Assembly (NCBI RefSeq): GCF_039538065.1
Contig: NZ_BAABBR010000001.1
Location: 1,898,501-1,962,500, forward strand
Length of the DNA: 64,000 nt
Direction of reading: 5' to 3'
Source of the DNA: Sphingomonas rosea
GTDB taxonomy: Bacteria > Pseudomonadota > Alphaproteobacteria > Sphingomonadales > Sphingomonadaceae
The notes beneath the pieces were generated by a model that was given only the letters and a program-made list of their open reading frames with translations, was not told where the DNA came from and searched no databases. The translations under genes were made by a program, and so were the position numbers. Each line of letters opens with the position of its first letter. Position 1 is the stretch's first letter. Of this stretch, positions 39,403-60,750 are shown piece by piece.

Positions 39403-40398
39403 ATGTACACGACCGATCTCTCCAAGCCCGGCGCCACCGTGCAGCCGATCGGCCCCCGCGAAGACCCCGAGCTTCTCGCCGCCTTCGAGGCGCGGGTCGC
39501 GGCGGACGAGTTCATCGAGCCCAAGGACTGGATGCCCGAAGCCTATCGCAAGACGCTGACCCGGCAGATCAGCCAGCATGCGCACAGCGAGATCGTCGGC
39601 ATGCTGCCCGAGGGCAACTGGATCACGCGTGCACCCTCGCTTCGGCGGAAGGCGATCCTCCTCGCCAAGGTGCAAGACGAGGCGGGGCACGGCCTCTACC
39701 TCTATTGCGCCGCCGAGACGCTGGGCACGAGCCGCGAGGAGATGATCGAGGCGCTCCACTCGGGGAAGGCCAAGTATTCGACGATCTTCAACTATCCGAC
39801 GCTGACCTGGGCCGACATCGGCGCGATTGGCTGGCTGGTCGACGGCGCGGCGATCATGAACCAGGTGCCGCTCCAGCGCACCAGCTACGGCCCCTATGCC
39901 CGCGCGATGGTCCGGGTGTGCAAGGAAGAAAGTTTCCACCAGCGCCAGGGCTATGAGATCTGCATGGAGCTGATGCGCGGCACGCCCGAGCAGAAGCGGA
40001 TGATGCAGGACGCCTTCAACCGCTGGTGGTGGCCGAGCCTGATGATGTTCGGTCCGCCCGACGACAATTCGCCCAACACCGCGCAGTCGATGCGCTGGCG
40101 GATCAAGCGCGAGACCAATGACGAGCTCCGCCAGAAGTTCGTCGACATCACCGTGCCGCAGGCCGAGTTCATCGGTCTCACCGTTCCCGACGCCGACCTC
40201 AAGTGGAACGAGGACAAGGGCGGCTACGACTTCGGCTCGATCGACTGGGCCGAATTCTATGCGGTCGTGAAGGGCGAGGGCCCGGTCGCGAGGGAGCGGA
40301 TCACCGCGCGCCGCGAGGCGTGGGAGAAGAATGCCTGGGTCCGCGAGGCGGCGCAGGCGCACGAGGCGAAAAAGCGGGCCGCCAAGGCCGCGGCTTGA
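39403..40398 (+). CDS. paaA: 1,2-phenylacetyl-CoA epoxidase catalytic subunit PaaA
   Basis: Di-iron catalytic subunit of the multicomponent monooxygenase that epoxidises the aromatic ring of phenylacetyl-CoA. The 331-residue protein has the ferritin-like helical bundle with the iron-ligand E-x2-H motifs in [13 protein letters not shown] and [13 protein letters not shown], and the [16 protein letters not shown] segment characteristic of PaaA. ATG 39403 starts close to the usual N-terminus. It heads the paaABC-paaE group. Confidence 0.96.
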
Positions 40399-40443
40399 CG
40401 TAATCCGTCGTCACGGCGAAGGCCCCACGCGACGGAGGAATGC

Positions 40444-40725
40444 ATGTCGGACTGGCCGCTTTGGGAAGTTTTCGTTCGCACCAAGGGCGGGCTCGCGCAC
40501 CGTCACTTCGGAAGCGTGCACGCGCCTGACGCCGAAATGGCGCTGCGCCACGCCCGCGACACCTACACCCGTCGCCAGGAAGGCGTCAGCCTGTGGGTAG
40601 TGAAGTCGAGCGACATCGTCGCCAGCGATCCCGCGCAGGCCGGCGAACTGTTCGAACCGGCGGCTGACAAGGTTTATCGCCACCCGACCTTCTACGAGAT
40701 CCCCGACGAGGTGAAGCACATCTGA
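40444..40725 (+). CDS. paaB: 1,2-phenylacetyl-CoA epoxidase subunit PaaB
   Basis: Small bridging subunit of the epoxidase, 93 residues, the usual length. It shows the family features WEVFVRTKGGLAHRHFGSVHAPDAEMAL and YTRRQEGVSLWVVKSSDIV. It helps assemble the PaaA-PaaC heterodimers. The stop overlaps the paaC start by one base (TGATG at 40723-40727), so translation is coupled. Confidence 0.95.
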   Translation: MSDWPLWEVFVRTKGGLAHRHFGSVHAPDAEMALRHARDTYTRRQEGVSLWVVKSSDIVASDPAQAGELFEPAADKVYRHPTFYEIPDEVKHI

Positions 40726-41546
40726 TGCCGAGCCTTCCGCCGATCCGTCCCGAGGACGAGGCCGTCGCTGCCCGCCTCGTTCCCACCGGTGCCTTCGACG
40801 CGCCGTCCGATGCGCACGATCCGATCCGTGCGGGCTATTGCCTGCGGCTCGGCGACGATGCGCTGATCCTCGGCCAGCGCCTCAGCGAGTGGACCGGGCA
40901 CGCCCCGTCGGTCGAGGTCGATCTCAGCCTCGCCAACATGGCGCTCGACCTCGTCGGCCAGGCGACCCTGTTCCTGGCGCAAGCGGGCGACGCCGACACG
41001 CTGGCGTTCAAGCGCGACGTGCTCGACTTCCGCAATTGCCTGCTGGTCGAGCAGCCCAATGGCGACTTTGCGCGCACCATGGTCCGGCATCTCCTGTTCG
41101 CGACCTTCCAGCACATGCTGTTCGAGCGGCTGACGGCGAGCCGCGACGCGGCGATCGCGGGAATCGCGGCCAAGGGCGTCAAGGAACTCGCCTATCACCG
41201 CGAGCTGGCCGCCGACTGGGTGATCCGGCTCGGCGACGGCACCGAGGAAAGCCGCGCACGCACCATCGACGCGCTCGATTGGTGCTGGCGCTTCGTGCCC
41301 GAATTGTTCGAGGTCGACGAGGAGCTGGAATTGGGAATTGCGGCCGGAATCGCGGTCGATCCGCGCGGCTTCGAGGCCGACTATCGCTCGGCCATCGCCG
41401 CCGTGCTGACCGAGGCGACCTTGCCCGTCCCGGCGGACAGCCGGGCCATCCTTGGCGGGCGGCGCGGGCACCACAGCGAGCATCTCGGGCACCTGCTCGC
41501 GATCATGCAATATCTGCCGCGCACATACCCGGACGCGAAGTGGTGA
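40725..41546 (+). CDS. paaC: 1,2-phenylacetyl-CoA epoxidase structural subunit PaaC
   Basis: Ferritin-like structural partner of PaaA, 273 residues, which supports the catalytic subunit without its own metal site. Recognisable segments are DLSLANMALDLVGQATLFL, FRNCLLVEQPNGDFA, AYHRELAADWVIRLGDGTEES and the C-terminal GRRGHHSEHLGHLLAIMQYL. The next gene should be paaD in the common order, but here a palindromic repeat follows and then paaE. Confidence 0.95.
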   Translation: MPSLPPIRPEDEAVAARLVPTGAFDAPSDAHDPIRAGYCLRLGDDALILGQRLSEWTGHAPSVEVDLSLANMALDLVGQATLFLAQAGDADTLAFKRDVLDFRNCLLVEQPNGDFARTMVRHLLFATFQHMLFERLTASRDAAIAGIAAKGVKELAYHRELAADWVIRLGDGTEESRARTIDALDWCWRFVPELFEVDEELELGIAAGIAVDPRGFEADYRSAIAAVLTEATLPVPADSRAILGGRRGHHSEHLGHLLAIMQYLPRTYPDAKW

Positions 41547-41557
41547 AGGCTACGGTT

Positions 41558-41625
41558 TCGTTCGTCCTGAGCGAAGTCGAAGGGCGCTTGCGCCACGGTG
41601 CTTCGACTTCGCTCAGCACGAACGA
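41558..41625. repeat. Palindromic repeat between paaC and paaE
   Basis: Two 25-base arms, 41558-41582 and 41601-41625, are inverted repeats differing at one position, around an 18-base loop. The core of the right arm is CTTCGACTTCGCTCAGCA. It fills the 91-base gap, starting 11 bases after the paaC stop and ending 12 bases before the paaE start. Related copies lie at 46386-46465 and 60679-60750, so this is a dispersed family. Confidence 0.93.
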
Positions 41626-41637
41626 GATGGTTCAATA

Positions 41638-42714
41638 ATGTCGGAAAAGCATTTCCATGCCCTCGAGGTCGCTGAGATCGTCGAGGAGACCGCCGAGGCG
41701 CGCTCGATCCGCTTCCACGTGCCGCCCGAACTCGGGCCCGTGTTCCGCTATCGCGCCGGCCAGCACCTGACGCTTCGGGCCGAGATCAATGGCGAAGAGG
41801 TGCGGCGCAATTATTCGCTCTGCACCGCGCCCGCCGACGAGGCGCTTAAGGTGACGGTGAAGCAGATCGCGGGCGGCGCTTTCTCCAACTGGGTGGCGCG
41901 TGAACTGAAGGCCGGCGACCGGCTCGACGTCATGCCGCCGCACGGCAGCTTCACCACGCACTTCGATGCCGCGGCCAGTCGCCGTTACGTCGCCTTTGCC
42001 GGCGGGTCGGGGATCACGCCGATCATGAGCCTCGCGCGCACTGCGCTCCTCGAAGAGCCGGACAGCCGCTTCACGCTCTTTTACGGCAATCGCGACGCGT
42101 CGAGCGTCATCTTCCTCGATGCGCTGGCGGAGCTGAAGGACCGCTATCTCGGCCGGTTCGAGCTGTTCCACCTGCTGAGCGACGAGGACGGCGACGTCGA
42201 GTTGCTGAACGGCATGCTCGACCGCGAGACCTGCGCGGAGGTGATCGACGCCTTCGTGCCCGACGTGGCCGCGGTCGACGCTTTCTTCATCTGCGGCCCC
42301 GGCCCGATGATGGACGCGGCCGAAGCCGCGCTGCTGGCCGCGGGCGCCGCGCCCGAGCGAGTCCACATCGAGCGCTTCACGGCCGGCCGCCCGAGCGCCG
42401 CGCTCGCCGCCGAAATGGCCGAACTCCAGCAGGCCGCGTCTGGTCAGCAGATGAGCGTGACCATCGACGGGCGCACGCGTCGGATCGCGTTCGACGGGAC
42501 CAACATCCTCGACAGCGCCCGCGCCTCGGGGCTGCCCGCGCCCTTCGCCTGCAAGGCGGGCGTCTGCGCGACCTGCCGGGCGCGGGTGACCGCCGGCGAA
42601 GTGTCGATGGCGGCGCGCTACGGCCTCTCCGACGAGGAGATTGCGGCCGGCTACGTGCTCACCTGCCAGTCCGTGCCCAAGGGCGAAGGCGTGGCGGTGG
42701 ATTACGACGCCTGA
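41638..42714 (+). CDS. paaE: 1,2-phenylacetyl-CoA epoxidase reductase subunit PaaE
   Basis: NAD(P)H:ferredoxin-type reductase that feeds electrons to the PaaA di-iron centre. The 358-residue protein has an FAD domain (YRAGQHLTLRAEINGEEVRRN, RRNYSLCTAP), an NAD domain (AGGSGITPIMSL and FFICGPGPMMD) and a C-terminal 2Fe-2S plant-type ferredoxin with ligands in FACKAGVCATCRARV and VLTCQS. ATG 41638 directly follows the repeat; a GAGATGG stretch may serve as the ribosome-binding site. Confidence 0.95.
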   Translation: MSEKHFHALEVAEIVEETAEARSIRFHVPPELGPVFRYRAGQHLTLRAEINGEEVRRNYSLCTAPADEALKVTVKQIAGGAFSNWVARELKAGDRLDVMPPHGSFTTHFDAAASRRYVAFAGGSGITPIMSLARTALLEEPDSRFTLFYGNRDASSVIFLDALAELKDRYLGRFELFHLLSDEDGDVELLNGMLDRETCAEVIDAFVPDVAAVDAFFICGPGPMMDAAEAALLAAGAAPERVHIERFTAGRPSAALAAEMAELQQAASGQQMSVTIDGRTRRIAFDGTNILDSARASGLPAPFACKAGVCATCRARVTAGEVSMAARYGLSDEEIAAGYVLTCQSVPKGEGVAVDYDA

Positions 42715-42733
42715 ACGCGCTAGTCGCATCCCC

Positions 42734-43927
42734 ATGCTGACCGAAGCCAAGCGCCGCGGCCTTGCCGATCTGCCCCCACTCGTCAGCGATTCGCTGCTGG
42801 CGCTGATCGCCATGGCCAATGCCGACACCCGGCCCGACAAGATCGACGTCGGGGTGGGCGTGTATCGAGACGGCGAGGGGCGGACCCCGATCATGGCGGC
42901 GGTGCGCAAGGCCGAGGAAGGCCTGCACGCGTCCCAGGAGACCAAGTCCTATCTCGGCGGCGTCGGCGACAAGCGCTTCGCCGACCTGCTTCGCCCGATC
43001 GTGCTGGGCGCCCATGCGGATGACGACCGGATCGTTGGCCTGCAGACGCCGGGCGGTTGCGGGGCGCTGTTCCTCGCGCTTCGGCTGATCGCCGCCGCCA
43101 ATCCCGAGGCGCGCGTCTTCATGGGGACGCCGACCTGGCTCAACCACCCGCCGATGACGCGCGGCGCGCGGCTCGAGATCGCCGAATATCGGCACTATGA
43201 TCCGGTCGCGAGGGCGATCGACTTCGGCGCGATGATCGCGGCGCTTGAGGGGGCGCGGCCGGGCGATGTCGCGCTGCTCCATGCCTGCTGCCACAATCCG
43301 ACCGGCGCGGACCTCAGCGAGGACCAGTGGCGCGAGGTCGTGCGGGTCGTGAGCGAGCGCGGGCTCATCCCGCTCATCGACTTCGCCTACCAAGGCTTCG
43401 GGCGCGGGCTCGAGGCCGACCGCTTCGGGGTCGAGCTGATGCTCGAAGCCTGCGACGAAGTGCTGATCACGCAAAGCTGCGACAAGAATTTCGCTGTCTA
43501 TCGCGATCGCGTCGGCTGCCTGTTCGTGAAAGCGCCAAGCGCCGACCTCGCGCGCTTCTCGCTCACCCACATCCTCCAGATCGCGCGCGAAGCCTGGTCG
43601 ATGCCGCCCGACCATGGCGCGGCCTGCGTCCGGATCGTGCTCGACGAGCCCGACCTTCGCGCTGAATGGCACGCGGAGCTCGAGGCCATGCACGGCCGGA
43701 TCCGCATGGTGCGCGAGAAGATCGCCGGTGCCGATCCGCGCCTCGCCTATATCGCCGAACAGCAGGGCATGTTCTCGATGCTCCCGCTGTCGGTCGAGCA
43801 GGTGAAGAAGCTGCGCAGCGACCATTCCATCTACATGACCGACAATGCTCGCGCGAACCTCGTCGGCATCGCCGACAACGGCCTCGATCGCTTCTGCGCG
43901 GCGATCGTCGAGGCGATGAATGGCTGA
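42734..43927 (+). CDS. Class I aminotransferase, aromatic/aspartate type
   Basis: PLP-dependent aminotransferase of 397 residues in the AspC/TyrB subgroup (aromatic or aspartate:2-oxoglutarate). Visible residues include Asn188 in CHNPTGADLS, Asp216 and Tyr219 in LIDFAYQGFG, and the PLP lysine at residue 251 in SCDKNFAVYRDRVG, followed by the conserved arginine. ATG 42734 begins 19 bases after paaE. Its 3' end overlaps the E1 gene by eight bases. Its place between paaE and the 2-oxoacid dehydrogenase suggests it converts phenylalanine or another aromatic amino acid to the oxoacid. Confidence 0.9.
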   Translation: MLTEAKRRGLADLPPLVSDSLLALIAMANADTRPDKIDVGVGVYRDGEGRTPIMAAVRKAEEGLHASQETKSYLGGVGDKRFADLLRPIVLGAHADDDRIVGLQTPGGCGALFLALRLIAAANPEARVFMGTPTWLNHPPMTRGARLEIAEYRHYDPVARAIDFGAMIAALEGARPGDVALLHACCHNPTGADLSEDQWREVVRVVSERGLIPLIDFAYQGFGRGLEADRFGVELMLEACDEVLITQSCDKNFAVYRDRVGCLFVKAPSADLARFSLTHILQIAREAWSMPPDHGAACVRIVLDEPDLRAEWHAELEAMHGRIRMVREKIAGADPRLAYIAEQQGMFSMLPLSVEQVKKLRSDHSIYMTDNARANLVGIADNGLDRFCAAIVEAMNG

Positions 43928-45968
43928 AAAGGACCCTGACTTTACGGTCGCGACCGACTGGGAAGAAGTTGCCCGGCTGGTCCTGACCAGCCGCGAGCTC
44001 GACCGGCTGGAGGAAGAGGAACTCGTTCCGGCCAAGCAGGTCCTCTACCAGTTTAGCGCGCGCGGGCATGACATGGCGCAGGTGCTGCTCGGACTGCACC
44101 TCAAGGACGGCGACGCGGCCTGCGGCTATTACCGTTCGCGCCCGCTGCTGCTGGCGCTGGGTGTGCCACTCGCCGACGCGCTCGGGAGCGGCATGGGGCG
44201 CTCGGGCGGCTATTCGGGCGGACGCGATATCGGCGTCGTGTTCAATTATCCCAATCCGGGCGGCGCCCATGCCTTGCCGATGTGCGGCGGGGTCGGGGCG
44301 CAATATACGCCTGCGGCCGGCTGGGCGCAGGCGATCAAGTACAAGGCCGAGGTGCTGAAGGAAGAAGCCCGCGGCAACATCGCGCTGGTGCTCGGCGGCG
44401 ACGCGAGCTGCGCGACCGGGGGCTTCTGGTCGGCGCTGACGATCGCGACGACGCAGAAGCTACCCTTGCTCTTCTACGTCGAGGACAATGGCTACGGCAT
44501 TTCGGTGCCGTCGACCTACCAGACGCCTGGGCAGGACATCGCCGCCAACCTCGGCTCCTTCAAGGGCCTGACGATCTTCAACGGCGACGGCACCGATCCG
44601 GTCGAGGCCGCTCGCCTGGTCGATTCGGCGGTGACGCATGTTCGGAGCGGGCAGGGGCCGGCGCTGCTGCGGCTGACCGTGCCGCGGCTCGAAGGCCACA
44701 GCTACCAGGACACGCAGACCTACAAGAGCGAAAGCGAGATCGCCGCCGAATGGGCCCGCGATCCGCTGCCCAAGCTGAAGGCGCATTGCGCGGCGCTGCA
44801 GATCGGCGAGCAGCGCTGGGGCGAACTCGCGCAGTCGGTCGCTTGGGACGTCGGCCAGGCCCGTGCCGAGGCCGAGGCGCGCCCGGTGCTCCCGGTCGAG
44901 GATGTGGCGAACGATGTCTTCTTCTCGGGCACGCATGCCGAGGTCGGTGGCCGCGCCGGGCTGAGCCTCGAGGGCACGCACGAGGAGCCGCGTCCCGAGG
45001 GCCAGCGGATCAACATGGTGACCGCCATCCGCCGCGTGCTCGACCAGGAGCTCGAGGCCAATCCGAAGATGGCCGTCTTCGGCGAGGACGTCGGGCCCAA
45101 GGGCGGCGTTCATGCGGTGACGCTCGGCCTGCAGGAGAAGTACGGCCACGGCCGCGTCTTCGACACGAGCTTGAACGAGGAAGGCATCGTCGGGCGCGCG
45201 GTCGGCATGGCGCTCGCCGGGTTGCTGCCAGTTCCCGAAATCCAGTTCCGTAAATATGCCGAGCCGGCGACCGAGCAAATCAACGACGCGGGCACGATGC
45301 GCTGGCGGACCGCCAACCGCTTCGCCCCGCCGATGGTGCTGCGGGTGCCCGGAGGCTTCTTCAAGTGCGGCGATCCCTGGCACAGCCAGACCAACGAGGT
45401 GCAGTTCGTCCACAATCCCGGCTGGAAGGTCGCGGTGCCGAGCAATGCCGAGGATGCGGTCGGGCTGCTTCGCATGGCGCTGCGAAGCCACGACCCGGTG
45501 CTCTTCTTCGAGCATCGCGCCATGCTCGACGACAGCTGGGCGCGGCGGCCGTGGCCGGGTGAGGGCTATGTCCTGCCGTTCGGCCGGGCGAAGAAGACCC
45601 GCGAAGGCGACAAGATCACGATCGTCACCTGGGGCGCGATGGTGCCGCGCTGCGAGGCGGCGGCCGAGGGCGTCAGCGCCGACGTCATCGACCTGCGAAC
45701 CCTCCAGCCGTGGGACCGCGAAATGGTGCTGAAGAGCGTGTCGCGCACCCGGCGATGCCTCATCGTCCACGAGGACCTCCGCACCGCAGGTTTCGGCGCC
45801 GAGATTGCCGCGGTGGTCGCGGACGAGGCCTTCCTCGACCTCGACGCGCCGGTCGCGCGCGTGACCATGCCCGACATTCCCTCGCCGCATCACCCGGCGT
45901 TGCTCGAGGCCGCGGTGCCGAGCGTCGCGCGGATCAGGGCCGAGATCGACCGGCTGGTGGGGTTCTGA
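43920..45968 (+). CDS. 2-oxoacid dehydrogenase E1, fused alpha and beta subunits
   Basis: Thiamine-diphosphate-dependent decarboxylating component of a branched-chain-type 2-oxoacid dehydrogenase complex, in which the alpha (residues about 20-330) and beta (about 355-680) subunits form one 682-residue chain. The alpha half has the TPP motif GGDASCATGGFW to VEDNGYGIS. The beta half has AVFGEDVGPKGGVHAVTLGL, FDTSLNEEGIVGRAVGMAL and FGAEIAAVVADEAFL. It overlaps the aminotransferase by eight bases and is followed by a tiny gene and E2. No E3 is nearby. Substrate may be phenylpyruvate or a branched oxoacid. Confidence 0.93.
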   Translation: MAEKDPDFTVATDWEEVARLVLTSRELDRLEEEELVPAKQVLYQFSARGHDMAQVLLGLHLKDGDAACGYYRSRPLLLALGVPLADALGSGMGRSGGYSGGRDIGVVFNYPNPGGAHALPMCGGVGAQYTPAAGWAQAIKYKAEVLKEEARGNIALVLGGDASCATGGFWSALTIATTQKLPLLFYVEDNGYGISVPSTYQTPGQDIAANLGSFKGLTIFNGDGTDPVEAARLVDSAVTHVRSGQGPALLRLTVPRLEGHSYQDTQTYKSESEIAAEWARDPLPKLKAHCAALQIGEQRWGELAQSVAWDVGQARAEAEARPVLPVEDVANDVFFSGTHAEVGGRAGLSLEGTHEEPRPEGQRINMVTAIRRVLDQELEANPKMAVFGEDVGPKGGVHAVTLGLQEKYGHGRVFDTSLNEEGIVGRAVGMALAGLLPVPEIQFRKYAEPATEQINDAGTMRWRTANRFAPPMVLRVPGGFFKCGDPWHSQTNEVQFVHNPGWKVAVPSNAEDAVGLLRMALRSHDPVLFFEHRAMLDDSWARRPWPGEGYVLPFGRAKKTREGDKITIVTWGAMVPRCEAAAEGVSADVIDLRTLQPWDREMVLKSVSRTRRCLIVHEDLRTAGFGAEIAAVVADEAFLDLDAPVARVTMPDIPSPHHPALLEAAVPSVARIRAEIDRLVGF

Positions 45969-45969
45969 G

Positions 45970-46140
45970 GTGATCGACCTGTTCCGCCGTCACGCCGCCG
46001 CGGCGACCCTCGCCCTCACCTTCGTCGCCTGTGCAGTTGGCGCGGTGCTTGGCCTGAGCACGATGGAACTCGTCGGCCTGCTCGCCTTCGGGGCGATGAT
46101 GGCGGCGATCAACAGCATCGGGAGCAAGGCCAAGCGATGA
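45970..46140 (+). CDS. Small membrane protein between E1 and E2
   Basis: A 56-residue protein from GTG 45970 to TGA 46140. It has two hydrophobic stretches (ATLALTFVACAVGAVLGL and MELVGLLAFGAMMAAI) and a basic tail (SIGSKAKR). It begins two bases after the E1 stop and shares ATGA with the E2 start (46137-46140), so it is locked into the operon. GC-rich third positions match its neighbours. No family recognised. A membrane-active role beside a soluble dehydrogenase complex is unexpected. Confidence 0.72.
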   Translation: MIDLFRRHAAAATLALTFVACAVGAVLGLSTMELVGLLAFGAMMAAINSIGSKAKR

Positions 46141-47363
46141 TCGACGTTCGCGTTCCCGACGAACAGGAAGGCACCAAGGCCGTCGTCCGTGCCTGGCTCA
46201 AGCAGCCGGGCGACATGGTCGCGCTCAACGATCCGCTGGTCGAACTCGAGACCGACAAGGTGACGCAGGAAGTCCCCGCGCCGGCGGCCGGCGTGCTGGC
46301 GGAAATCCTGCTCGACACCGATGCCGAGGCGATGCCGGGGGCATTGCTCGGGCGGATCGATGCGGAGGCGAATTTCTCCGCTCCCGTTGGTGCTGAACGG
46401 AGCGCGGATGGCGTGGTCAAAGAGCCGTCGACCGAGCGTGCTTCGACTTCACCCAGCAAGAACGAGCCTGGAAGCAACATCGAGGCCCGGCTTTCCCCCT
46501 CGGTTCGCCGTGCGCTCATGCAGCACGACATCGACCCCGCCCGCCTCACGGGGACCGGGCGCAACGGGCGGATCACCCGCGAGGACGTCGATCGAGCGGT
46601 CGCGGGTGCGACGGTCAGCCATGTCGATGCCGGGGCCAAGTCGATCGCCCAGCCGCGCGTGGCCGAGGCCAATTGGGCCGACATCCCGCACGACCGGATG
46701 CGCCGGGCGATTGCCGAGAACATGGTCAAGGCCGTCACGGACGCGCCGCATGTCACCGCGCTGTTCGAAGCCGACTTCACCGCGATCACCGCGCACAAGA
46801 AGGCGCTCGCCGCGCGCGGCACCAAGCTCAGCTACACCGCTTATTTCCTCAAGGCCGCGGCCGAGGCGATGGCGGTCGCGCCGGCGGTCAACGGCAAGTG
46901 GGCCGAGGACCGGATCGTGCTCGGCCAGAGCGTCGATATCGGCGTCGGCACCGCATTGGGCGACAAGGGGCTGGTGGTGCCCGTGGTCCGCGATTGCGGC
47001 GGCCTCAGCCTCGAGGAGATCGGGCAGCGCCTCGATGCGCTCACCGCCAAGGCGCGGGCGGGCAAGCTCGAGCGCGCCGACGTCGCGGGTGGGACCTTCA
47101 CCATCTCGAACCACGGCGTCTCGGGTTCGCTCCTCGCCGCGCCGATCATCCTCCACGCCGGCCAGGCAGCGATCCTCGGCATCGGCAAGCTGCAGAAGCG
47201 CGTGGTCGTGCTCGATGCGGACGGGAGCGACGTCATCGCCATCCGGCCGATGGCCTACGTCACGCTGACCATCGACCATCGCGTCATCGACGGACATCAG
47301 ACCAACGCCTGGCTGAGCCGCTTCGTCGCCATCCTCGAAGGCTGGCCCGCGCTGGAGGCGTAA
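46137..47363 (+). CDS. Dihydrolipoamide acyltransferase E2 of a 2-oxoacid dehydrogenase complex
   Basis: Core acyltransferase of the complex, 408 residues. The lipoyl domain carries the modified Lys41 in ELETDKVTQEV. The peripheral subunit-binding domain spans residues 119-151 (LSPSVRRALMQHDIDPARL, GRNGRITRED). The catalytic domain ends with the active-site histidine in LTIDHRVIDGHQTN. The linker at residues 84-110 is encoded by a palindromic repeat of the family seen between paaC and paaE. With E1 it would make acyl-CoA from a 2-oxoacid, possibly phenylacetyl-CoA from phenylpyruvate. No gene for E3 is near. Confidence 0.94.
   Translation: MIDVRVPDEQEGTKAVVRAWLKQPGDMVALNDPLVELETDKVTQEVPAPAAGVLAEILLDTDAEAMPGALLGRIDAEANFSAPVGAERSADGVVKEPSTERASTSPSKNEPGSNIEARLSPSVRRALMQHDIDPARLTGTGRNGRITREDVDRAVAGATVSHVDAGAKSIAQPRVAEANWADIPHDRMRRAIAENMVKAVTDAPHVTALFEADFTAITAHKKALAARGTKLSYTAYFLKAAAEAMAVAPAVNGKWAEDRIVLGQSVDIGVGTALGDKGLVVPVVRDCGGLSLEEIGQRLDALTAKARAGKLERADVAGGTFTISNHGVSGSLLAAPIILHAGQAAILGIGKLQKRVVVLDADGSDVIAIRPMAYVTLTIDHRVIDGHQTNAWLSRFVAILEGWPALEA
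46386..46465. repeat. Palindromic repeat captured inside the E2 coding sequence
   Basis: 46441-46465 matches 22 of 25 bases of the right arm of the 41558-41625 repeat (shared core CTTCGACTTC, then CAGCA), and 46386-46422 matches about 27 of 37 bases of the other arm as found at 60713-60749. It is read through in frame as the flexible linker between the lipoyl and subunit-binding domains. It is more diverged than the intergenic copies, as expected under coding constraint. Confidence 0.78.
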
Positions 47364-60663: not shown

Positions 60664-60678
60664 GGCGAGGACCGCGTG

Positions 60679-60750
60679 CTTCGACTTCGCTCAGCACGAA
60701 CGAGACAGCGGTCGTTCGTCCTGAGCGGAGCGCGACGCACGTAGTCGAAG
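60679..60750. repeat. Palindromic repeat between the emrA-like and emrB-like genes
   Basis: 60679-60703 matches the right arm of the 41558-41625 repeat exactly (25 bases; core CTTCGACTTCGCTCAGCA). 60712-60750 carries the other arm (CGTTCGTCCTGAGCGGAG, then GTCGAAG) with an extra 13-base stretch. It fills most of the 97-base gap inside the operon; AAGGG at its end (60748-60752) looks like the ribosome-binding site of the next gene. Confidence 0.93.

Follow-up and report, generated by a model that had tools for sequence, protein, structure and literature searches.

How does a cell in which no PaaK is found provide phenylacetyl-coenzyme A (phenylacetyl-CoA) to the ring epoxidase PaaABCE? In the aerobic breakdown of phenylalanine and phenylacetate PaaABCE is the central enzyme that opens the ring, and the ligase PaaK is usually taken as the first step. 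The question is raised by Sphingomonas rosea (assembly GCF_039538065.1), from which we have analysed a stretch of 64,000 nt of contig NZ_BAABBR010000001.1 (positions 1,898,501 to 1,962,500, forward), termed the window below. In the window paaA, paaB, paaC and paaE are followed by genes for an aminotransferase and for the E1 and E2 components of a 2-oxoacid dehydrogenase. A first interpretation from the letters alone (the sequence-only reading) had proposed that these genes lead from phenylalanine through phenylpyruvate to phenylacetyl-CoA, the substrate of PaaABCE. Comparison of genomes supports that proposal, with substrates that we infer: the cluster is very probably a ligase-free entry into the PaaABCE pathway, in which a phenylpyruvate dehydrogenase complex would supply phenylacetyl-CoA.

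The aminotransferase would convert phenylalanine to phenylpyruvate, which the fused E1 would decarboxylate on thiamine diphosphate (TPP). E2 would transfer the phenylacetyl group to CoA, generating phenylacetyl-CoA, and the lipoyl group would be reoxidized by an E3 encoded elsewhere. PaaABCE would then epoxidize the ring, and the distant PaaG and PaaZ would continue the degradation. For the cluster, we thus infer the substrates, the E3 partner and the direction in which flux runs. We know of no 2-oxo acid step in the lower phenylacetate pathway, so that E1/E2 would fit upstream of it. The features of the locus are as follows.

39403..40398, + strand: paaA, catalytic epoxidase subunit (TIGR02156, 530 bits, cut-off 280)
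40444..40725, + strand: paaB (TIGR02157, 147 bits, cut-off 85)
40725..41546, + strand: paaC (TIGR02158, 269 bits, cut-off 133)
41558..41625, no strand: palindrome like a repetitive extragenic palindromic (REP) element, at the site where several relatives carry paaD (25-nt arms 96% complementary, 18-nt loop)
41638..42714, + strand: paaE, epoxidase reductase (TIGR02160, 404.5 bits, cut-off 420.8; FAD, NAD and 2Fe-2S domains)
42734..43927, + strand: aromatic amino acid aminotransferase, putatively phenylalanine to phenylpyruvate (NF006719, 449.5 bits, cut-off 377)
43920..45968, + strand: fused E1 alpha-beta, TPP-dependent 2-oxoacid dehydrogenase, putatively acting on phenylpyruvate (E1_dh, Transket_pyr, Transketolase_C; own clade, 100/100)
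45970..46140, + strand: 56-aa hydrophobic open reading frame (ORF) between E1 and E2 (from translation; no Pfam family)
46137..47363, + strand: E2 with lipoyl, E3-binding and acyltransferase domains (Pfam PF00364, PF02817, PF00198; ETDKV and DHRVIDG motifs)

The coordinates and family models bear out the order of the seven genes on one strand that had been read from the sequence. The paaA and paaB genes are separated by 45 bp, paaB and paaC overlap by 1 bp, and the 91 bp between paaC and paaE (41547-41637) are mostly occupied by the 68-bp palindrome. A gap of 19 bp precedes the aminotransferase gene, which overlaps that of E1 by 8 bp (43920-43927), as had also been read. The stop codon of E1 lies 168 bp 5′ of the start of E2. 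The ATGA overlap reported at position 46137 does exist; it joins E2 not to E1 but to the 56-aa ORF, which starts with GTG. Sphingomonas sp. BN140010 (L034) has a similar ORF in this position, and a second relative (L031) has none.

PaaA, PaaB and PaaC all exceed the cut-offs of their curated models. PaaE falls 16 bits under that of a 'hypothetical equivalog' model; the match is full-length, with all three expected domains. The aminotransferase exceeds the curated aromatic-aminotransferase model, and among solved structures it best matches an aromatic aminotransferase, 1ay4 (337 bits), which we take to be a Paracoccus denitrificans protein. K251, R285 and R373 sit in the motifs expected of a class I, TyrB-like enzyme, and are presumably the pyridoxal phosphate lysine and both arginines. 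All six Pfam domains of E1 and E2 are over cut-off, with the E2 motifs located at residue 38 (ETDKV) and residue 380 (DHRVIDG). As judged by their domains, the two proteins would form a 2-oxoacid dehydrogenase multienzyme complex.

The S. rosea genome is a single contig of 2.68 Mb that is 99.96% complete. No PaaK over the cut-off of the one curated model used was found in it, the best match being 28.9 bits versus 646.3; 1 of 14 control genomes was over this cut-off. PaaZ and PaaG are encoded together about 260 kb away, both over their cut-offs. A fused indolepyruvate oxidoreductase (IOR) was considered as another source of phenylacetyl-CoA and ruled out for this genome, as no match to its model was found (the two-subunit IOR was not searched for).

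E1 co-occurs with PaaA in three sets of genomes. These comprise a family set (119 genomes, 96 genera), a class set (385 genomes) and a named set drawn from named relatives of E1 (the best 80 of 581), for which 50 genomes were tested. E1 orthologs in the family set have at least 69% identity, the next full-protein matches having at most 39% and beta-only matches up to 49%; the class set was searched at E up to 1e-110. E1 is present in 11 of the 119 family genomes, and PaaA is over cut-off in 13. All 11 genomes with E1 have PaaA, compared with 2 of the 108 without E1 (Fisher 7e-14, relatedness ignored), and both of those two (G020 and G071) have PaaK. With G066 scored as PaaK-positive though it is 8 bits below cut-off, five family genomes have PaaA and no PaaK (G000, G077, G044, G053 and G055); every one of these has E1 and none has a fused IOR. 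Three E1 genomes of the family (G052, G056 and G085) have the fused IOR as well. The E1 and paaA genes are distant or on separate contigs in 5 of the 11 (G027, G052, G056, G066 and G085), so the association does not arise only from linkage.

PaaA is likewise present in 4/4 class-set genomes with E1 (including G000) versus 44/381 of the others (48 in total), and in 48 of the 50 named genomes. Five of the named genomes, as judged from identical places, repeat four from the family set (G044, G055, G066 and G081) and one from the class set (G435); counting distinct genomes over all sets, PaaA accompanies E1 in 57 of 59. A PaaK match at 1e-120 was obtained in 22 of the 50 named genomes, 21 of these being over cut-off. 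PaaK is missing from 30 of the 55 distinct genomes of the family and named sets that have E1 and PaaA and were tested for it.

The neighbourhood of E1 was examined in the 80 named loci, in stretches of up to 10 kb on each side, where paaABC, paaG, paaZ and paaK were scored. At least one of these genes lies in the stretch in 45 loci; together with the co-occurrence of PaaA in unlinked cases, this upholds the linkage of paa genes with E1/E2. In 23 of the 80 loci, and in addition in G077 (same genus), the order paaBCE-aminotransferase-E1-E2 is contiguous on one strand, a recurrence that goes beyond chance. The paaA gene is visible in 21 of the 23, while in the other two (L039 and L050) the contig begins after paaA. 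Within these 23 loci the proteins have 53-65% (aminotransferase) and 66-82% (PaaE) identity to those of the window. No paaK was found within any of them. On a genome scale, PaaK is absent from all 13 genomes with the contiguous order that were tested (G000, G077 and those of 11 of the 23 named loci: L031, L034, L035, L038, L040, L041 and L044-L048), so the absence of the ligase that the sequence-only reading supposed is found for the window genome and its like.

E2 follows E1 in 76 of the 80 loci. Three of the exceptions (L066, L068 and L073) end inside E1 or about 140 bases past it, and the fourth is L103, discussed below. The aminotransferase gene is immediately 5′ of E1 in 37 loci. A dihydrolipoyl dehydrogenase (E3) over cut-off is encoded after E2 in three loci, one each from Shinella, Martelella and Bosea. 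In G077 a gene of 1164 aa follows E2; it was considered as an IOR and rejected, since it gave no NCBIfam match at E 1e-15.

For a tree, the alpha and beta parts of E1 from 62 loci were used, yielding 59 different rows. All 47 rows of the window's E1 and its orthologs, of which 44 are different, group in a single clade with 100/100 support on a long branch, separate from a clade of seven branched-chain ketoacid dehydrogenase (BCKDH) rows and from the pyruvate dehydrogenase (PDH)-like rows, where the BCKDH and PDH-like labels of distant rows go back to no more than the best BLAST query. How the outgroups branch is uncertain, since the program warned of long branches that lie mainly in the outgroup. 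Rows from Pseudomonas and Oleiphilaceae fall among those of alphaproteobacteria, which suggests that E1 has moved by horizontal transfer. Moreover, E1/E2 and an Lrp/AsnC gene are also plasmid-borne in Shinella and Paracoccus and on a pSymB of S. meliloti. Both observations would be expected if E1 and the paa genes travelled together on shared mobile aromatic islands and had no common pathway, an explanation to which we give very little credence. Against it, ten Rhizobium, Sinorhizobium and Pseudomonas loci that have no scored paa gene in the flanks (L071, L080, L082, L087, L096, L097, L098, L102, L104 and L110) have PaaA elsewhere in the genome, and the contiguous operon is preserved in 23 named loci.

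A number of observations weigh against assigning the cluster to phenylpyruvate dehydrogenation, or against this being the only route. Some other CoA ligase, outside the PaaK model search, could act on phenylacetate. The genome also encodes a homologue of the phenylalanine hydroxylase PheH, so phenylalanine may also leave via tyrosine. The proposed bypass of PaaK fits the genome, in which no PaaK over cut-off is found; the cluster as sole exit for phenylalanine is unsupported. We note that PheH is missing from 7/11 family genomes with E1 versus 16/108 of the others (p 8e-4, relatedness ignored), a pattern that fits E1/E2-Paa as an alternative outlet for phenylalanine. The window genome and three other E1 genomes of the family retain PheH alongside E1. 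In the named set 21 of the 48 genomes with E1 and PaaA do have PaaK and 27 have none, so in many cases the route supplements PaaK instead of replacing it. Two of the 50 named E1 genomes have no PaaA. In Methylobacterium sp. Leaf123 (L103, 10001-12025) the E1 ortholog has no adjoining E2 match, there is no genomic PaaA match (E up to 1e-80), and a transposase-like gene was seen by eye upstream of E1. With no E2 beside it and such a gene upstream, this E1 may be a remnant or decaying copy. The other (L093) is a metagenome-assembled genome of Oleiphilaceae, having PaaK and no PaaA match, possibly from a missing contig. In 35 of the 80 loci no scored paa gene is present in the stretch, in part as a result of contig ends. 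The beta part of E1 scores 217-251 bits to the solved beta subunits of BCKDH, bacterial PDH, Thermus and 1ik6. Finally, a divergent Lrp-like gene is located upstream in 36 of the 80 loci, and regulators of the Lrp type commonly accompany branched-chain operons as well. For the four Lrp-like proteins tested Lrp is the best NCBIfam model, all being below its cut-off.

Such a regulator would suit a second BCKDH (or PDH) that lies beside the paa genes by chance, and many of the 120 relatives listed are indeed named '2-oxoisovalerate dehydrogenase E1 component'. The database names of E1 relatives also include 'alpha-ketoacid dehydrogenase' and 'transketolase C-terminal domain-containing protein'. 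We consider such a chance neighbour very unlikely. There are four strong E1-alpha places in the genome, corresponding to PDH, a BCKDH-type enzyme, a 983-aa frame that is taken to be 2-oxoglutarate dehydrogenase, and the window E1. The PDH alpha and beta are equivalogs of curated models; against the alpha subunit of 2-oxoisovalerate dehydrogenase (1qs0_A) the BCKDH-type alpha reaches 505 bits, and a BCKDH-type beta is present too. Since separate genes for both enzymes exist, the window E1 is not the sole BCKDH or PDH of the cell. That E1/E2 replaces an absent BCKDH is ruled out by the same genes.

The window E1 itself lies outside the branched-chain and pyruvate clades, the placement that the sequence-only reading had left to be checked, and it tracks PaaA even where the genes are unlinked. 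Its alpha part scores only 46-48 bits to 1qs0_A, and it does not pass the curated PDH E1 models (225.9 versus 321 bits for beta, 128.6 versus 411 bits for alpha). In an alignment of 47 E1, 7 BCKDH and 1 PDH sequences, Tyr71-Arg72, GHS 259-261, Glu420 and His488 of E1 are common to BCKDH and PDH, while Tyr446 is common to BCKDH and is Phe in the PDH row; we take these conserved residues to have catalytic roles. Around the conserved His and Tyr, the positions that are invariant in E1 differ from those that are invariant in BCKDH, giving for example QFRKYAEP rather than QFADYIYP and DPWHSQTNE rather than GQTHSQSPE. The use of these residues as proof of specificity was dropped, as outside a substrate-bound structure they do not show which substrate fits.

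The complex might instead be a broad aromatic 2-oxoacid dehydrogenase, accepting indolepyruvate and 4-hydroxyphenylpyruvate as well, with phenylpyruvate being one substrate of several. The aminotransferase family is known as broad. In addition, E1/E2 and an Lrp/AsnC gene on a plasmid of Paracoccus sp. AK26 (L129) lie beside genes for an aminotransferase, an aldehyde dehydrogenase, an FAD oxidoreductase and a VOC protein, and the 20 kb shown contain no annotated paa gene; this is possibly a different use of the same complex. We regard the broad enzyme as unlikely, given that the presence of PaaA in nearly all of the distinct E1 genomes points to phenylacetyl-CoA as the product that is needed.

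The palindrome between paaC and paaE in the window occupies the site of paaD, which was not found there. Searches within the loci gave no paaD match in any of the 23 contiguous loci or in G077 (L005), while G044 has one (L003:8135-8566, by tblastn). The sequence encoding the E2 linker (46440-46464) contains an in-frame copy of one arm of this palindromic repeat with 3 mismatches, and in Sphingomonas alba a copy is likewise located in the E2 linker (L045:12339). The repeats seem to have entered the E2 linker and then been retained as coding sequence. Further copies of the 25-base repeat are found at 60678-60702 of the window and at position 3838 of L025, directly 3′ of the gene for PDH E1 beta of the window genome itself.

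The preferred assignment, a phenylpyruvate dehydrogenase feeding PaaABCE, may be set against known systems. The canonical PaaK-PaaABC(D)E pathway shares PaaA, B, C and E with the window and PaaG and PaaZ with the rest of the genome; unlike it, the window has no PaaK over cut-off and no paaD in the operon, and has the aminotransferase, E1 and E2 instead. The E1 of PDH and of the bkd-encoded BCKDH has the same TPP-dependent E1/E2 machinery with conserved catalytic-type residues, but the window E1 is a fused alpha-beta protein in a separate clade, with other invariant residues near the conserved His. In Streptomyces pristinaespiralis one paper describes a PDH-like alpha/beta pair, PglB/PglC, converting phenylpyruvate to phenylacetyl-CoA (PMC7089894). 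The PDH-type reaction would be the same as that of the cluster; as described there, PglB/PglC differ in serving phenylglycine biosynthesis in an actinomycete, from separate alpha and beta genes in a five-gene operon without paa. In Phaeobacter inhibens the enzyme is reportedly a ferredoxin-type oxidoreductase (IOR). Work on tropodithietic acid in that organism has phenylpyruvate going to phenylacetyl-CoA with phenylacetate skipped (PMC7497051), like the route proposed here, but the window genome is without a fused IOR.

For the reaction itself there are thus precedents, and what appears new is a catabolic E1/E2 clade linked to PaaABCE: we found no such link in the open-access literature, most subscription papers being outside the search. 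No such enzyme was found in the available part of the GapMind gap-filling paper (PMC9007349). A 2026 survey of the pathway is, in the part available, built on the gene context of PaaK (PAL) (PMC13186573) and would therefore not cover genomes that lack PaaK. We think it probable that E1/E2 is a dedicated catabolic complex with its own deep E1 clade across Alphaproteobacteria and Pseudomonas, replacing PaaK in the operon type of Sphingomonas and Sphingomicrobium, supplementing it elsewhere, and missed by PaaK-anchored surveys.

If this is correct, a substrate would be assigned to a widespread and misnamed clade of E1 proteins. The ligase step costs two ATP equivalents, which the cell would be spared. 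It would also predict that there are bacteria that use phenylalanine via this pathway but not phenylacetate.

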